Below, piece after piece: positions 1,543 through 30,761 of a DNA stretch of 36,075 nt; position 1 is the stretch's first letter; every line of letters begins with the position of its first letter. Made by a program: the position numbers and the translations under genes. Origin of the DNA: Chloroflexota bacterium (GTDB taxonomy: Bacteria > Chloroflexota > Dehalococcoidia > Dehalococcoidales > RBG-16-60-22); contig JAHJTL010000117.1 of the NCBI GenBank assembly GCA_018829775.1, positions 1 to 36,075 of the forward strand, written 5' to 3'. The notes beneath the pieces were generated by a model, which saw nothing but the letters and a program-made list of their open reading frames with translations, was not told the DNA's origin and made no database searches.

Positions 1543-1980
1543 ATGCCGAGTCTGAACAAAGTGACCATAATAGGGAATGTCGGTGGGGAACCGGAGATGC
1601 GGTTTACACCAAATGGAAAGCCCGTAACCTCGTTTGGTGTGGCCACCAACTGGGTATCGACGACTCCAGAGGGAGAGCGCAGACAGGAAACGGAGTGGTT
1701 CAACGTGGTGACCTGGAACAAGCTTGCCGAACAGTGCAACCAGTTCCTGGCCAAGGGCCGGTTGGTTTATGCTGAAGGCAGGCTACACACTCGTTCCTGG
1801 GAAGGACAGGACGGGCAGCAGCATTCCAGGGCAGAGATAATTGCCAATAAGGTGATATTCCTTGACCGTAGAGGGGTATCGCCACTACCTGAGGAAAAGC
1901 CGGAGGAAGGTGCTGGTGCTGGTGGCAAGGTAGAGGAAAGCGATGCCGCGGAACTGGAACCGGACGATATTCCATTTTAG
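1543..1980 (+). CDS. ssb: Single-stranded DNA-binding protein
   Basis: Binds and protects single-stranded DNA in replication and repair. The 145-residue protein starts with the OB fold (SLNKVTIIGNVGGEPEMRFT, then FNVVTWNKLAEQCNQFL and VYAEGRL) over about residues 1-108. A low-complexity acidic linker follows, ending in DDIPF, the conserved C-terminal tip that docks partner proteins. GAAAGGAG lies upstream of the ATG. Sits between rpsF and rpsR as in most bacteria. Confidence 0.97.
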   Translation: MPSLNKVTIIGNVGGEPEMRFTPNGKPVTSFGVATNWVSTTPEGERRQETEWFNVVTWNKLAEQCNQFLAKGRLVYAEGRLHTRSWEGQDGQQHSRAEIIANKVIFLDRRGVSPLPEEKPEEGAGAGGKVEESDAAELEPDDIPF

Positions 1981-2005
1981 ATAAATGCAGTTGAAAGGGT
2001 TGTGA

Positions 2006-2296
2006 ATGGCAGAAACGAGGGAAGCGCCTAGAAGCAGGAAGTGGACCAAACCAAGGTATGTACCCAAGCGCAAGGTATGTGCGTTCTGTGCGGACAAGAC
2101 GCAGGTCATGGATTACAGGAAACCCGAGAAATTACTTTTTTTCATTACCGAGAGGGGAAAGATTGCGCCACGTCGTAAAAGCGGTACCTGTGCCAAGCAT
2201 CAACGCATGCTGGCGAGGGAGATAAAGAGGGCTCGTCACCTGGCCCTATTGCCCCACGCACCGGTTCATATTCATGAGCTGGAAATGTCCCGTTGA
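2006..2296 (+). CDS. rpsR: 30S ribosomal protein S18
   Basis: Small-subunit platform protein, partner of S6. The 96-residue product has a basic N-terminus, a CxxC at residues 25-28 (KVCAFCAD) and a further Cys in SGTCAKH, so this is a cysteine-bearing, probably zinc-binding version. S18 core strings are [13 protein letters not shown] and [20 protein letters not shown] precedes the ATG. Last gene of the rpsF-ssb-rpsR group. Confidence 0.95.
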
Positions 2297-2385
2297 TTGG
2301 TGACGACGATAGATAACGATATTTCCGCTTGATTTCCCAGAATTAAAAAGGGACAAATTGGTATATTTATTAACGGTGAGTTGAA

Positions 2386-3163: not shown

Positions 3164-4297
3164 TTGTTTAAGAAACGAACGATAAGTAAGGTGTTGCTTC
3201 TGGCAGTAATGCTCCTTATACTGGCCAGCGGGTTGGCTGTCCCCAGCTGCCAGCCGGCCAAAGGTATACCAAGGGGGTGGTCAGGGATTTACGTTGGCGA
3301 TGACGCTCTCTTTCTGGGTTCAATGGAAGGCAAGCTGGTCGCCATCGATAAGTCCACCCAGCAGCGCCTCTGGCCGGATGTCCCGTTTAAACAGAAGCAG
3401 TCAAGCGGCTTTGGCTGTGGCCAGGGAGACCAGGCGGTGGCCATATACGGAACACCCGCGGTGGCGACGGAATTGGTCTACATTACCGGCTATAACGGCA
3501 AAATGTATGCCATAAACGTGGAGACCGGCGCGCTGCGCTGGGTGTATCCAAGGGAAGATGAACTCGACCCGATTGTTGGCGGCCCTGTGGCGGCAGGGGA
3601 TAAAGTATATTTCGGCGGCTCTGATGGCAAGTTATATGCTCTCGATGCTGCAACCGGAGATGAACTCTGGATATTTGAAAAATCCGAAGGGAAGATATGG
3701 GGAACACCGGCGGTAAACGGTGAAACCCTGTATATCGGCTCATTTGATAAGAAGCTGTATGCGGTGAATGTGGCCGACGGCACCCTGAAGTGGCAGTTTG
3801 AAACGGAGGGGGCGATTGTCAGCACTCCACTGGTGTATGATGACATGGTTTATTTCGGTTCTTTCGACCGGCATCTGTATGCCCTGAGTGAGGCCGACGG
3901 CAGTCTGCGCTGGAAATACCAGGCCGATAACTGGTTCTGGTCACGTCCCCTGGCTGATAACGGTGTCATCTATGCCGGTTCGGTTGATGGAACAGTACAT
4001 GCATTGACGGCTGATAAAGGTGAAAAAGTCGCCGTCTTTGACCTGGAAAGCCCGGTTAGTTCCTCGCCGGTTCTGGCCGATGGTAATGTAATTGTGGCGG
4101 TGGAGGCAGGCCAGGTGTACTCGTTAAATGTCAGTCCCAGGCAGAAAGAACAGCTGGTAAACCTGGAGGAAGAGATTTACGCGCCTCTGGCAACTGGCGA
4201 TGGAGTTGTCTATATTCACAGCGCCGATGATACACTTCACGCAATGGATGCCGTGTCCGGAACAATACTGTGGATGATTAAATTGGAGAGCGAGTGA
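3164..4297 (+). CDS. PQQ-type beta-propeller lipoprotein (BamB-like repeats)
   Basis: Predicted exported, lipid-anchored propeller of 377 residues. The N-terminus (FKKRTISKVLLLAVMLLILA) is a signal peptide ending in VPSC, a weak lipobox with the candidate lipidated Cys at residue 29. The rest is repeated units of the form VYFGSxDxxLYALxxxxGxLxW, for example near VYFGGSDGKLYALDAATGDE and LYIGSFDKKLYAVN; I count roughly seven. No catalytic residues are evident, so a scaffold or binding role is likelier than an enzyme. It starts with TTG at 3164 and lies between yidD and yidC, which suggests a job in membrane or surface protein assembly (inference). Confidence 0.82.
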   Translation: MFKKRTISKVLLLAVMLLILASGLAVPSCQPAKGIPRGWSGIYVGDDALFLGSMEGKLVAIDKSTQQRLWPDVPFKQKQSSGFGCGQGDQAVAIYGTPAVATELVYITGYNGKMYAINVETGALRWVYPREDELDPIVGGPVAAGDKVYFGGSDGKLYALDAATGDELWIFEKSEGKIWGTPAVNGETLYIGSFDKKLYAVNVADGTLKWQFETEGAIVSTPLVYDDMVYFGSFDRHLYALSEADGSLRWKYQADNWFWSRPLADNGVIYAGSVDGTVHALTADKGEKVAVFDLESPVSSSPVLADGNVIVAVEAGQVYSLNVSPRQKEQLVNLEEEIYAPLATGDGVVYIHSADDTLHAMDAVSGTILWMIKLESE

Positions 4298-27349: not shown

Positions 27350-28282
27350 ATGCTGGTCGAGGAAGAACTGGCCCGGTCTTCACCGGAAAAAGACACACTC
27401 CTCACCGTTGGTGTGTTTGACGGCGTGCACCTCGGTCACAAGCATCTGATTTCACAGCTGGTGGGCAAGGCGGAGCAGGAGGGTTTGATGAGCGGGGTGG
27501 TAACGTTTCGGCAGCACCCCCAGGAGGTGATGCGCCCGGGTATGAAGTTGCCCTTTCTGACCAACCTTGCGGAGAGGGAAAAGCTGCTCAAAAATGAAGG
27601 GGTGGATATTATCGTTCCGCTTACCTTTATCGCTGAGACTGCTCAGCTTAATGCGCGCGATTTCATCGGTCTGCTTGTAAAATACCTGCACATGCGCGGT
27701 ATGGTAATCGGGCCTGACTTCGCCCTGGGTAAAAAACGGGAAGGCAACGCAGATGCGCTCTATTTATTGGGGCGTGAACAGGGCTTCAGCGTTACCGTGG
27801 TGCCTCCGGTGGTAGTCGATGGAGAAATTGTGAGCAGCACCGCCATCAGAAAGGCTCTGTCGGACGGAGATGTGCATAAGGTGAAGCGGCTGGCTGGCCG
27901 CAGCTTCAGCCTCCGGGGTCATGTTGTAGCGGGTGCCGGGAGGGGAGTGGCGCTGGGATTTCCGACCGCCAATCTGGATATCGGCCCCGAGCAGGCTCTA
28001 CCAGCAGACGGGGTTTATGCCAGCTGGGTGAGTATTGACGGCGAAACTTTCCCCTCATTGACCAATATCGGTACCAGCCCTACCTTCGGTGATGGCCGGC
28101 GGGCGGTGGAGGTCTACATTGTTGATTACGAGAGTGACCTCTACAGGCGTGAAATAGAAATCGAGTTTGTGGAACGGTTGCGCGGAGAAAAGAGATTCGA
28201 TAGCATAGAAGAGCTGAAAAGACAGATAGCCGAAGATGTAAAACGGGGCGTCGCCTTATTGAACGCTAAAGGTGGAAGGTAA
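27350..28282 (+). CDS. ribF: Bifunctional riboflavin kinase / FAD synthetase
   Basis: Converts riboflavin to FMN and then FAD. 310 residues in two domains: an N-terminal nucleotidyltransferase with GVFDGVHLGHKHLI (about residues 23-36), VVTFRQHPQEVM and SSTAIRKALSDGDV; and a C-terminal flavokinase with GRGVALGFPTANL, YASWVSI and LTNIGTSPTFGDGRRAVE. ATG at 27350. tyrS starts only two bases after the stop, so the two share a transcript. Confidence 0.96.
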   Translation: MLVEEELARSSPEKDTLLTVGVFDGVHLGHKHLISQLVGKAEQEGLMSGVVTFRQHPQEVMRPGMKLPFLTNLAEREKLLKNEGVDIIVPLTFIAETAQLNARDFIGLLVKYLHMRGMVIGPDFALGKKREGNADALYLLGREQGFSVTVVPPVVVDGEIVSSTAIRKALSDGDVHKVKRLAGRSFSLRGHVVAGAGRGVALGFPTANLDIGPEQALPADGVYASWVSIDGETFPSLTNIGTSPTFGDGRRAVEVYIVDYESDLYRREIEIEFVERLRGEKRFDSIEELKRQIAEDVKRGVALLNAKGGR

Positions 28283-28284
28283 AC

Positions 28285-29592
28285 ATGAAAGACCAGGTAA
28301 GAAAAACGACTGAGAAAGAAGAAAAATTCCTTCTACGACGGGGGGTAGCTGAAATCATCGTTGAGGATGAAATGATTGCGCTGCTCCGCTCCGGAAGAAA
28401 GTTGAGATTGAAGGAGGGGTTCGACCCCAGTTTCCCCGATATCCACCTCGGGCACATGGTGTCGCTGCGGAAGCTGCGCCAGTTTCAGGAACTTGGCCAT
28501 CAGGTGGTGCTCATCGTCGCCGACTGGACGGCCCGGATAGGCGACCCGAGCGGCGCTTCGGCAACCCGGCCCATGCTCACTGTGGAGCAGGTGCGGGCCA
28601 ATGCCCAGACCTATATGGAGCAATTTTTCAAGGTGGTGGATAAGGCAAGGACCGAAGTGAGGTGGCAGAGCGAGTGGTTCGATAAGTTCACACTAACGGA
28701 AGTAATTCAGCTGACCAGCAAATTCACCGTTGCCCAGTTTTTAGCGCGTGATGATTTTAATGCCCGGTACAATGACGGGCGGCCGATTGCGCTAACCGAG
28801 TTCATGTACCCGCTGCTCCAGGCATATGACTCGGTGGCAATAGAGGCGGACGTTGAGTTCGGTGGCACCGACCAGAAGTTTAACTTCCTGGTGGGAAGAG
28901 AACTCCAGTCCATGATGGGGCAGCCTCCCCAGCAGTGTTTTATGACGCCGCTTCTGGTGGGCACCGACGGCAGCCAGAAGATGAGCAAGAGCCTGGGGAA
29001 CTACATCGGCGTGGTGGAGACACCGGATGAAATCTATGGTAAGACAATGTCCATCCGTGACGACCTGATTATCCAGTATTTTGAACTGGTGACCGATGTG
29101 CCGGATGATGAACTGGAGGAATTCAGACAGGCACTGGATAACAATGCGGTAAATCCGATGGAGCTGAAAAAACGTCTGGCCAGGGAAATTGTGAGTCAGC
29201 TCTATAGTAAAAAGGCAGCCACTGCGGCTGAAGAGCAATTTGCTAAGGTTGTGCAGAGAAAAGAAGTGCCTGAAGAGATACGGCAAGTAAAGATAACTGA
29301 AGAATTGCTACAAAAAATAAAAGCCCGCTCATTTAAGGAAGTGGGACTTGTGGTTAGCATTAGAGAGGTCGGCAAGCCCGAGACTGAGGAGTTGATTGTA
29401 TCAGTTCCTTTGCTGTTATGTGAGATAGACCTAGCTAAAAGTCGTAGTGATGCCAAGCGTCTTATAGCACAAGAGTCTGTTCGCATAGATAACAGGACAG
29501 TTTATGAGAAACGCGGTAATATCAAGGTAGGCAGCGTCATCGTCATCAAGGTAGGCAAGCGGCGTTTTGTGAGAGTGGTTTTTGCTAATTAG
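28285..29592 (+). CDS. tyrS: Tyrosyl-tRNA synthetase
   Basis: Charges tRNA-Tyr; class I synthetase, 435 residues. HIGH-type motif HLGH (54-57), WTARIGDPSG, the tyrosine-site YPLLQAYDSVAIEADVEFGG, KMSKS (232-236) and a C-terminal S4 RNA-binding domain (DLAKSRSDAKRLIAQESVRI). From about base 29200 codon use becomes AT-rich (about 35% GC in 29281-29340 against 72% in 28501-28560). In the same frame just past the stop lies a second copy of the C-terminal peptide KVGKRRFIRV. Together these suggest the 3' third was replaced by recombination. No T-box precedes it. Confidence 0.96.
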   Translation: MKDQVRKTTEKEEKFLLRRGVAEIIVEDEMIALLRSGRKLRLKEGFDPSFPDIHLGHMVSLRKLRQFQELGHQVVLIVADWTARIGDPSGASATRPMLTVEQVRANAQTYMEQFFKVVDKARTEVRWQSEWFDKFTLTEVIQLTSKFTVAQFLARDDFNARYNDGRPIALTEFMYPLLQAYDSVAIEADVEFGGTDQKFNFLVGRELQSMMGQPPQQCFMTPLLVGTDGSQKMSKSLGNYIGVVETPDEIYGKTMSIRDDLIIQYFELVTDVPDDELEEFRQALDNNAVNPMELKKRLAREIVSQLYSKKAATAAEEQFAKVVQRKEVPEEIRQVKITEELLQKIKARSFKEVGLVVSIREVGKPETEELIVSVPLLLCEIDLAKSRSDAKRLIAQESVRIDNRTVYEKRGNIKVGSVIVIKVGKRRFVRVVFAN

Positions 29593-29595
29593 GAA

Positions 29596-29664
29596 AGTGG
29601 CAGCATTATCAAAGTCGGCAAACGCCGCTTTATCAGGGTAATAAATACTGATAGAATAAAATAA
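29596..29664 (+). pseudogene. Leftover of a tyrS 3' end
   Basis: In frame with tyrS but beyond its stop codon, these bases read SGSIIKVGKRRFIRVINTD and end in TAA. The live tyrS ends GSVIVIKVGKRRFVRV. The remnant uses GC-richer codons like the tyrS 5' part, so it looks like the original C-terminus left behind when a foreign 3' segment with its own stop was recombined in. Confidence 0.7.
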
Positions 29665-29678
29665 ACAAGGAGTTCAAA

Positions 29679-30761
29679 ATGGGACAATTGCGTATTCCAG
29701 GGCCTACCCCGTGCCCGTCGGAAGTCCTGCAGGCGATGGCCTGGCAGATGATAAACCACCGCGGGCCGGAATTCGGGGAGATGCTGCATGATGTTACCGC
29801 CAAGCTGAAACAGCTATTCCAGACCAAAAACGACCTGTACCTGCTGACAGGTTCCGGGACGGGGGGACTGGAGGCGGCAATTGTCAATACTCTCTCTCCA
29901 GGGGATAAGGTCCTTTCCGTGACGGTGGGAGTGTTCGGGGAGCGGTTTACCGACATGGCGGCGGAGTTTGGCGCCGAGGTTATCCCGCTCCGCTTTGAGT
30001 ATGGCAGGGTGGCTGACCCCGACGAAGTACGACGCGCATTGCAAAAGGAATCGGAAATCAAGGCCGTGCTGATAACACATAATGAAACCTCGACCGGCGT
30101 TACCAATGACCTGGCGGCCATCAGCTCCGTGGTCAAGGAGTTTGATAAACTGCTGCTGGTCGATGCCATCAGCAGCCTGGGCTCGATTGACCTGCCAGTG
30201 GACAAATGGCGCTGCGATGTAACCGTAACTGCCTCCCAGAAAGGGTGGATGGTACCTCCGGGCATGGCGATGGTCAGCGTCAGCAAGGAGGCGTGGCAGG
30301 CGCATGCCAAAGCCAAAATGCCCCGTTTCAACTGGGACTTTGCCAGAGCTCAAAAATATCTGGAGATAGGGCAGACACCCTGGACGCCGGCGATATCAAT
30401 CGTGTTTGCCCTCTCGGTGGCGCTGGACTTGCTGCTTGAGGAAGGATTACCCAACATCTTCGCCCGTCAGGCCAGGATAGGCAATGCGGCCCGGGAGGGG
30501 GTGAAATCGCTGGGATTATCTCTCTTCGCCGACGAGAAGTACGCTTCCGACACAGTTACTGCCGTGACCGTCAAGGACGGCCTGGATGTAAAGGGACTGC
30601 TCAAAATACTGCGCGAGGAATACCAGATAGTGCTTGCCGGCGGCCAGCAGAGCCTGCAGGGTAAGATATTCCGCATCGGGCACCTGGGCCTGATAACAGA
30701 AGAGGATATCAAAGAGATAATCTCAGCCCTGAAAGAGGTGTTGCCCAGGGTAAGCAAGTAA
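29679..30761 (+). CDS. Class V aminotransferase (alanine-glyoxylate / serine-pyruvate type)
   Basis: PLP-dependent transaminase, 360 residues. LRIPGPTPCPSEVL and MINHRGPEF at the N-terminus, LTGSGTGGLEAAIVNTLSPG, THNETSTGV, VDAISSLGSIDLPVD and the PLP-lysine region ASQKGWMVPPGMAM. The family includes serine-glyoxylate, alanine-glyoxylate and phosphoserine-like transaminases; the substrate cannot be fixed from sequence. No serA is adjacent. AAGGAG precedes the ATG. It follows tyrS and its remnant and is closed by a terminator. Confidence 0.9.
   Translation: MGQLRIPGPTPCPSEVLQAMAWQMINHRGPEFGEMLHDVTAKLKQLFQTKNDLYLLTGSGTGGLEAAIVNTLSPGDKVLSVTVGVFGERFTDMAAEFGAEVIPLRFEYGRVADPDEVRRALQKESEIKAVLITHNETSTGVTNDLAAISSVVKEFDKLLLVDAISSLGSIDLPVDKWRCDVTVTASQKGWMVPPGMAMVSVSKEAWQAHAKAKMPRFNWDFARAQKYLEIGQTPWTPAISIVFALSVALDLLLEEGLPNIFARQARIGNAAREGVKSLGLSLFADEKYASDTVTAVTVKDGLDVKGLLKILREEYQIVLAGGQQSLQGKIFRIGHLGLITEEDIKEIISALKEVLPRVSK

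Follow-up and report, generated by a model that had tools for sequence, protein, structure and literature searches.

The tyrS locus and its second gene end

The window, meaning the whole stretch of 36,075 nucleotides from a Chloroflexota bacterium that was analysed, carries a single tyrosyl-tRNA synthetase gene (tyrS) between two other coding genes (Table 1), and this is the only copy in the 2.16 Mb genome, for which the nearest matches were Dehalococcoidia metagenome-assembled genomes. The protein of 435 residues ends in ...IKVGKRRFVRVVFAN (fuller C-terminal reading ...VGSVIVIKVGKRRFVRVVFAN), followed by the stop codon TAG. Directly 3' of this stop, and in the frame of tyrS, 24 codons reading ESGSIIKVGKRRFIRVINTDRIK up to a further stop form a second, divergent gene end. 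The peptide IKVGKRRF(V/I)RV is found at 29545 and again at 29608 with 10 of 11 residues equal, in agreement with the original prediction of a repeated C-terminal peptide; the background did not exceed 6 matching residues, either in 5000 shuffles of the downstream stretch or at 3583 other window positions. At the DNA level, 24 of 33 bases are equal and 9 differ, which identifies the copies as divergent alleles rather than a recent duplication.

Table 1. Features of the tyrS region, with positions in the window
Feature	Positions	Strand	Basis
Upstream bifunctional riboflavin kinase/FAD synthetase gene	27350..28282	+	Pfam FAD_syn and Flavokinase
tyrS, chimeric tyrosyl-tRNA synthetase (435 aa)	28285..29592	+	Pfam tRNA-synt_1b at residues 37-323; single copy
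Resident part of tyrS, catalytic domain to codon 332	28285..29280	+	N-terminal tree: groups with genus and family relatives L031, L037, L038; codons from ~305 less certain
Cassette read as foreign (form A): linker, S4 domain and own stop	29281..29592	+	Third-position identity step at codon 333/334; dS 0.32 vs 1.87; DNA matches at tyrS
Displaced old tyrS 3' end, ESGSIIKVGKRRFIRVINTDRIK and stop	29593..29664	+	In-frame second end, repeat match, normal-tail matrix
Promoter-like TTATCA, 16 bases, TAGAAT within displaced end	29630..29657	+	Hexamer and spacing conservation; predicted from sequence
Downstream class-V aminotransferase gene, presumed promoter target	29679..30761	+	Pfam Aminotran_5; host-like on own tree

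The AT-richer composition claimed for the 3' part of tyrS was also confirmed, with a GC content of 0.538 up to 29200 and 0.438 from there to the stop (0.530 vs 0.436 if the gene is split at codon 333). The second copy of the peptide had been described as GC-richer, and this was incorrect: over the 33-base repeat its GC content is 0.48 vs 0.52 in the first copy, and that of the entire remnant is 0.36. In AlphaFold2 modelling of the protein, the best model reached a mean pLDDT of 80.7 and the remaining four 58-60. The catalytic part was mostly confident, the S4 domain moderate, and the linker at 349-369 of low confidence. The model only shows that the chimera would be compatible with a two-domain TyrRS.

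Separate histories of the catalytic part, the C-terminal part and the downstream gene

For comparison, 166 distinct tyrS loci were gathered. The C-terminal parts that follow the catalytic domain can be divided into several forms, the clearest being form A, the type of the window (...RSDAKRLIAQESVRID...), and form C (...KSEARRLIEQGAVYINGK...KST at the stop); the remaining forms were pooled as 'o'. Carriers of form A belong to 11 family groups, some of the loci being tied to genomes indirectly. Among 156 genomes of the order, form A DNA matches sit at tyrS, no second cassette copy is present elsewhere in the window's own genome, and in a class-level sample of 393 genomes cassette A matched only genomes of the same order. 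The GC content of the cassettes is 0.42 vs 0.53 in their hosts' catalytic parts for form A, and 0.46 vs 0.55 for form C. Other form A cassettes lack a 6-base tandem duplication (GTCATCGTCATC) found at 29536-29547 of the window, through which the protein gains two residues (VIVI) right before KVGKRRF.

Separate trees of residues 16-332 and of the C-terminal part are in conflict. On the first, the 14 form A loci require 12 changes, and monophyly of form A is rejected (lnL difference 344, AU p 1.5e-48); on the C-terminal part it is not rejected (p 0.92). It is rejected again on the tree of the downstream aminotransferase (p 5e-6). Both the catalytic domain and this aminotransferase group with their hosts. 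Since the trees of both flanks reject a form A clade and the C-terminal tree does not, the flanks on both sides are resident, and the part between them alone has moved. Relatives do share displaced tails, yet the composition is not uniform and the trees conflict. The prediction that a divergent allele has replaced the 3' part is strongly supported. Across ten form A loci, dS falls from 1.87 in the catalytic part, where 12 of 45 pairs are saturated, to 0.32 in the cassette, and pN/pS rises from 0.17 to 0.60. No dS gap of this kind was found in the other forms, where pS is alike in both parts. Form A cassettes, including that of the window at 29281-29592, change at nearly the same rate in the first, second and third codon positions (pN/pS about 0.6). 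The cassette pN/pS suggests relaxed or diversifying selection after transfer.

The left border of the cassette is sharp. Between form A carriers of different families, third-position identity is ~0.5 up to residue 332 and 0.7-0.9 just beyond, with the step at codon 333/334 in 53 inter-family pairs. Close relatives that carry different forms (L004/L136, L043/L039, L048/L045) likewise switch at codons 327-334, and no donor tract upstream of codon 333 is kept in any inter-family pair. A border at 29200 had been placed by composition; the composition shift there is real, and homology to other carriers moves the border ~80 bases downstream to codon 333 (29281). Compared with the genus-mates L031 and L037, some codons from ~305 on could be foreign too, which would fit the border by composition. 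No co-converted stretch precedes the border among carriers from different families, a point on which the result differs from the original prediction. In L115 (2770-3353, minus strand, G041), an in-frame duplication of ~40 codons, with two copies of HFARVVQQKEVPEEIEE, extends across this left border, as though another junction had arisen at that point.

Judged from the trees and distances, the S4 C-terminus is a foreign cassette of ~310 bases, exchanged among many related families, that has replaced the resident end of tyrS. By the same comparison, the domain swap in tyrS of this Dehalococcoidia order is recurrent and not one event; the replacement that had been read as a single scar therefore stands, and its singleness does not. 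The metagenome-assembled genome G050 has two contig ends, L111 with cassette A and L112 with cassette C. Their left flanks, ending in ...GTGCCGGAGGAGAT, have one difference in about 75 bases, and their right flanks, GGCAAACGCCGCTTTGCTAAAGTAATTAATTCAGATATACTTAG..., are identical across the shared 62 bases. Near-equal flanks around different cassettes suggest that two alleles with exchanged cassettes coexist in the G050 sample, and the two contigs appear to stop where an assembly graph would branch. The contigs of many such genomes break within tyrS (ends in G002, G003, G008, G010, G012, G021, G032, G036, G050), as expected if co-sampled strains carry different tyrS 3' cassettes.

Displaced ends and their promoter-like sequence

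Displaced ends in relatives were searched with a DNA matrix, made from 26 normal tails, that was scanned behind the stop codons. Twenty-three loci outscored all shuffles, one of which (L153) is a frameshift of its own tail, and two (L009 and L047) were added by eye. Displaced ends are kept at about 24 loci, most of them out of frame with tyrS. Most remnants start near GKRRF (GSIIKVGKRRF), without any piece of the catalytic domain. The spacers between stop and remnant are mostly 0-30 bases, and neither an integrase nor a nuclease was found between them in any of the remnant-bearing loci. Two loci, L009 and L034, are two-layered: a form A tail is followed by a form C end (GKRRFIKST or ST before the stop) and then by the oldest tail. 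The leftover ends represent a layered record of cassette swaps. Among loci with a replaced tail, remnants were detected in 18 of the 63 with the aminotransferase behind and in 0 of the 19 without it, a contrast that is confounded by relatedness. In the other 45 of the 63 loci with a non-normal tail and the aminotransferase, no remnant is detectable; it may not always have been needed, it may have decayed, or these tails may be native.

Several other features were observed behind tyrS. In L153 (G129), a frameshift within the S4 domain seemingly truncates tyrS, whose own tail comes next in another frame; this may be an assembly error. Six loci (L044, L147, L117, L042, L005, L047) have ~130-230 bases of palindromic repeats of the CCCCCT/AGGGGG type just after the tyrS stop; lying between the stop and the remnant or next gene, these resemble REP or MITE sequences. 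In L043, a form C tail is followed by ~520 bases (about 0-520 after the tyrS stop) that are missing from its close relatives L039 and L040 and contain a convergent ORF, the product of which is small, appears to be a membrane protein and has no Pfam match.

The gene downstream of tyrS is usually the class-V aminotransferase, and the old tail carries TTTGCTAAAGTNATTAATNCNGATATAAT-like DNA. In most remnants, a sigma70-like promoter (TTGCTA-16-TATACT type) can be seen a short way before the aminotransferase gene. Of 22 remnants, 16 have the two hexamers at the fixed distance of 16 bases, compared with 1.6% at other offsets, and the -10 bases fall mostly outside the matrix used for finding remnants. 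The -10 box at the fixed place is weak in L041, L048, L030, L145, L044 and L117. Conservation falls sharply upstream of GKRRF and is maintained over the -35, the spacer and the -10. In normal tyrS tails, the promoter sequence is encoded within the last codons, and promoter-making codons are preferred there (Phe TTT 26:3, Asp GAT 24:2, Ile ATA 9/9), and the preference persists when the 110 codons before them serve as the reference. In complete genomes of 1.4-1.5 Mb that probably belong to Dehalococcoides, the stop of a non-normal tail is immediately followed by TTGCTA-16-TATACT. The conserved -35 and -10 hexamers at fixed spacing before the aminotransferase gene correspond to the definition of a sigma70 promoter. 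The remnant probably functions as a putative promoter and is not debris; the passive leftover of the original prediction is improbable, since the remnant holds and keeps the promoter-like sequence. From the sequences compared, we infer that the motif drives transcription and that selection has retained it.

Explanations of the exchange and comparison with known systems

Sequence comparison has established that the C-terminus was replaced, that this recurred in many families, that the left border is sharp, that old ends were displaced and that the promoter motif is conserved. These features are probably the result of cassette swaps by horizontal recombination, in which the old end was retained for its putative promoter. 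Recombination would exchange the resident S4 module of TyrRS, from codon 333, for a foreign cassette of ~310 bp with its own stop, presumably via short conserved DNA at the borders (VPEEI codons on the left, GKRRFAK on the right), and the resident's last codons would end up just behind the new stop. These old codons would already have held a sigma70-type promoter for the aminotransferase gene, and recombinants retaining them would be favoured. Selection would favour recombinants in which the catalytic domain and the promoter are intact and the S4 domain is in frame. In our reading, the old 3' end most likely survives because the downstream gene needs its predicted promoter, which explains why the leftover starts at a similar position across many lineages and why the -35/-10 spacing persists as the bases before it decay. 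The left border speaks against this explanation: with plain homologous recombination, donor DNA would be expected upstream of codon 333, yet none is seen between families, and a site-specific or homing system would explain such a border.

A dedicated mobile element, such as an integrase island or homing nuclease, could be proposed to have inserted at tyrS with a new 3' end and to have been lost later, so that the new tail and the displaced old end stayed behind. The sharp border at the same codon across many families and the recent inter-family spread confined to tyrS are in its favour, as is the relative L056, in which a VRR-NUC nuclease ORF separates tyrS from the aminotransferase gene (~+59 to +584 after the tyrS stop; the same ORF lies in L123 at 1820-2344, minus strand). 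This origin is nevertheless unlikely, given the short spacers free of integrase or nuclease and a remnant far shorter than the replaced part. The VRR-NUC ORF was rejected as a general agent, being a singleton among the 156 genomes of the order, and L056 is without a clear remnant. No close relative of the cassette that would point to a viral or phage donor was found by protein scans of viral contigs, a viral pattern scan or tblastn against phages, and no mobile element tied to the cassette was found at the loci, in the genomes or in the viral and phage sets searched. We likewise give a low probability to an unseen mobile system that inserts S4 cassettes specifically into tyrS, with exact borders, across families of the order. 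If true, part of an essential aminoacyl-tRNA synthetase would be replaced by an element, and the raised pN/pS would point to the tRNA-binding domain being under diversifying selection, for instance to escape an inhibitor or phage.

Ordinary homologous recombination of tyrS, with native alleles later trimming the upstream donor DNA and the remnant as functionless neutral debris, is a rather improbable explanation. Near-identical flanks within populations such as G050 do permit cassette swaps, and the absence of the remnant at some loci would agree with debris; however, the upstream donor tract is missing from every inter-family pair, promoter spacing and -10 bases are kept in remnants while neighbouring bases decay, and coding tails favour the promoter codons. 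A simple tandemly duplicated gene end, or two C-termini produced by programmed readthrough of the stop, in either case without foreign DNA, is suggested by the in-frame second copy directly after the stop of the window and is refuted by the 9 differing bases, by the separate history of the C-terminal domain, and by the other reading frames of the leftovers in relatives, which exclude conserved readthrough.

Three further candidates were rejected. A diversity-generating retroelement does not fit, as the substitutions are not adenine-specific and all four bases vary alike (0.43-0.58 of columns). A conserved RNA structure in the cassette was unconvincing (z about -2, little covariation). Tail duplication is not a general trait of the genomes, with one clear case among 707 non-tyrS ORF ends and otherwise weak low-complexity matches. 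The clear case is a tandem tRNA-like pair overlapping the ORF end; in L043, near position 1627, two near-identical tandem tRNA-like copies overlap the end of an ABC transporter ATPase ORF.

In bacterial TyrRS with a C-terminal S4 domain, the class I catalytic domain precedes an S4-type tRNA-binding domain. The domain order is the same here, although the S4 domain has a horizontally mobile history of its own. In E. coli, prophage e14 or phage 21 integrates at the 3' end of icd, supplying a new end for the gene and displacing the old one; the replaced part and the remnant begin at the same core site, with the prophage between. In tyrS, the 3' end of a housekeeping gene is also supplied anew and the old one displaced, but the replacement starts at codon 333 and the remnant near GKRRF, no element is present, and the remnant covers much less than the stretch that was replaced. 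The rhs genes combine a conserved N-terminal part with laterally exchanged, non-homologous C-termini of distinct GC content; old C-termini are displaced downstream as layered remnants, the displaced tips still carrying a piece of the core (Jackson et al. 2009, PMC2935791). As in rhs, the C-termini of tyrS evolve independently of the conserved N-terminal part, and the old C-terminus is present downstream of the new one. Unlike in rhs, the remnant is short, lacks the core fragment that would point to a circular intermediate, and contains a predicted promoter. Moreover, rhs genes are polymorphic accessory genes whose exchange requires near-identical cores (PMC2935791), whereas tyrS is an essential housekeeping gene exchanged between families despite saturated upstream divergence. 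In mobile ORFs of fungal mitochondria (atp6, atp9, cox2, nad3), a foreign C-terminus is fused and the native one displaced downstream, and an endonuclease ORF in between explains the mobility (PMC3630166). The tyrS arrangement is similar, with a foreign C-terminus on the resident gene and the native end displaced, except that no nuclease or recombinase gene lies between the two ends. The displacement of C-termini works as in rhs, here in a housekeeping gene and with no core fragment in the displaced piece, and the nuclease of the fungal type is missing.

No reports of such swaps in tyrS were found in the literature searched. The transfers usually observed for aminoacyl-tRNA synthetases involve the entire gene. 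In this bacterial order, a single domain of an essential synthetase has been exchanged repeatedly as a cassette with borders near the same codons, and full-length tyrS trees in this group blend two histories. The leftover ends also suggest how a promoter that overlaps the coding 3' end of the preceding gene can determine the recombinants that persist.
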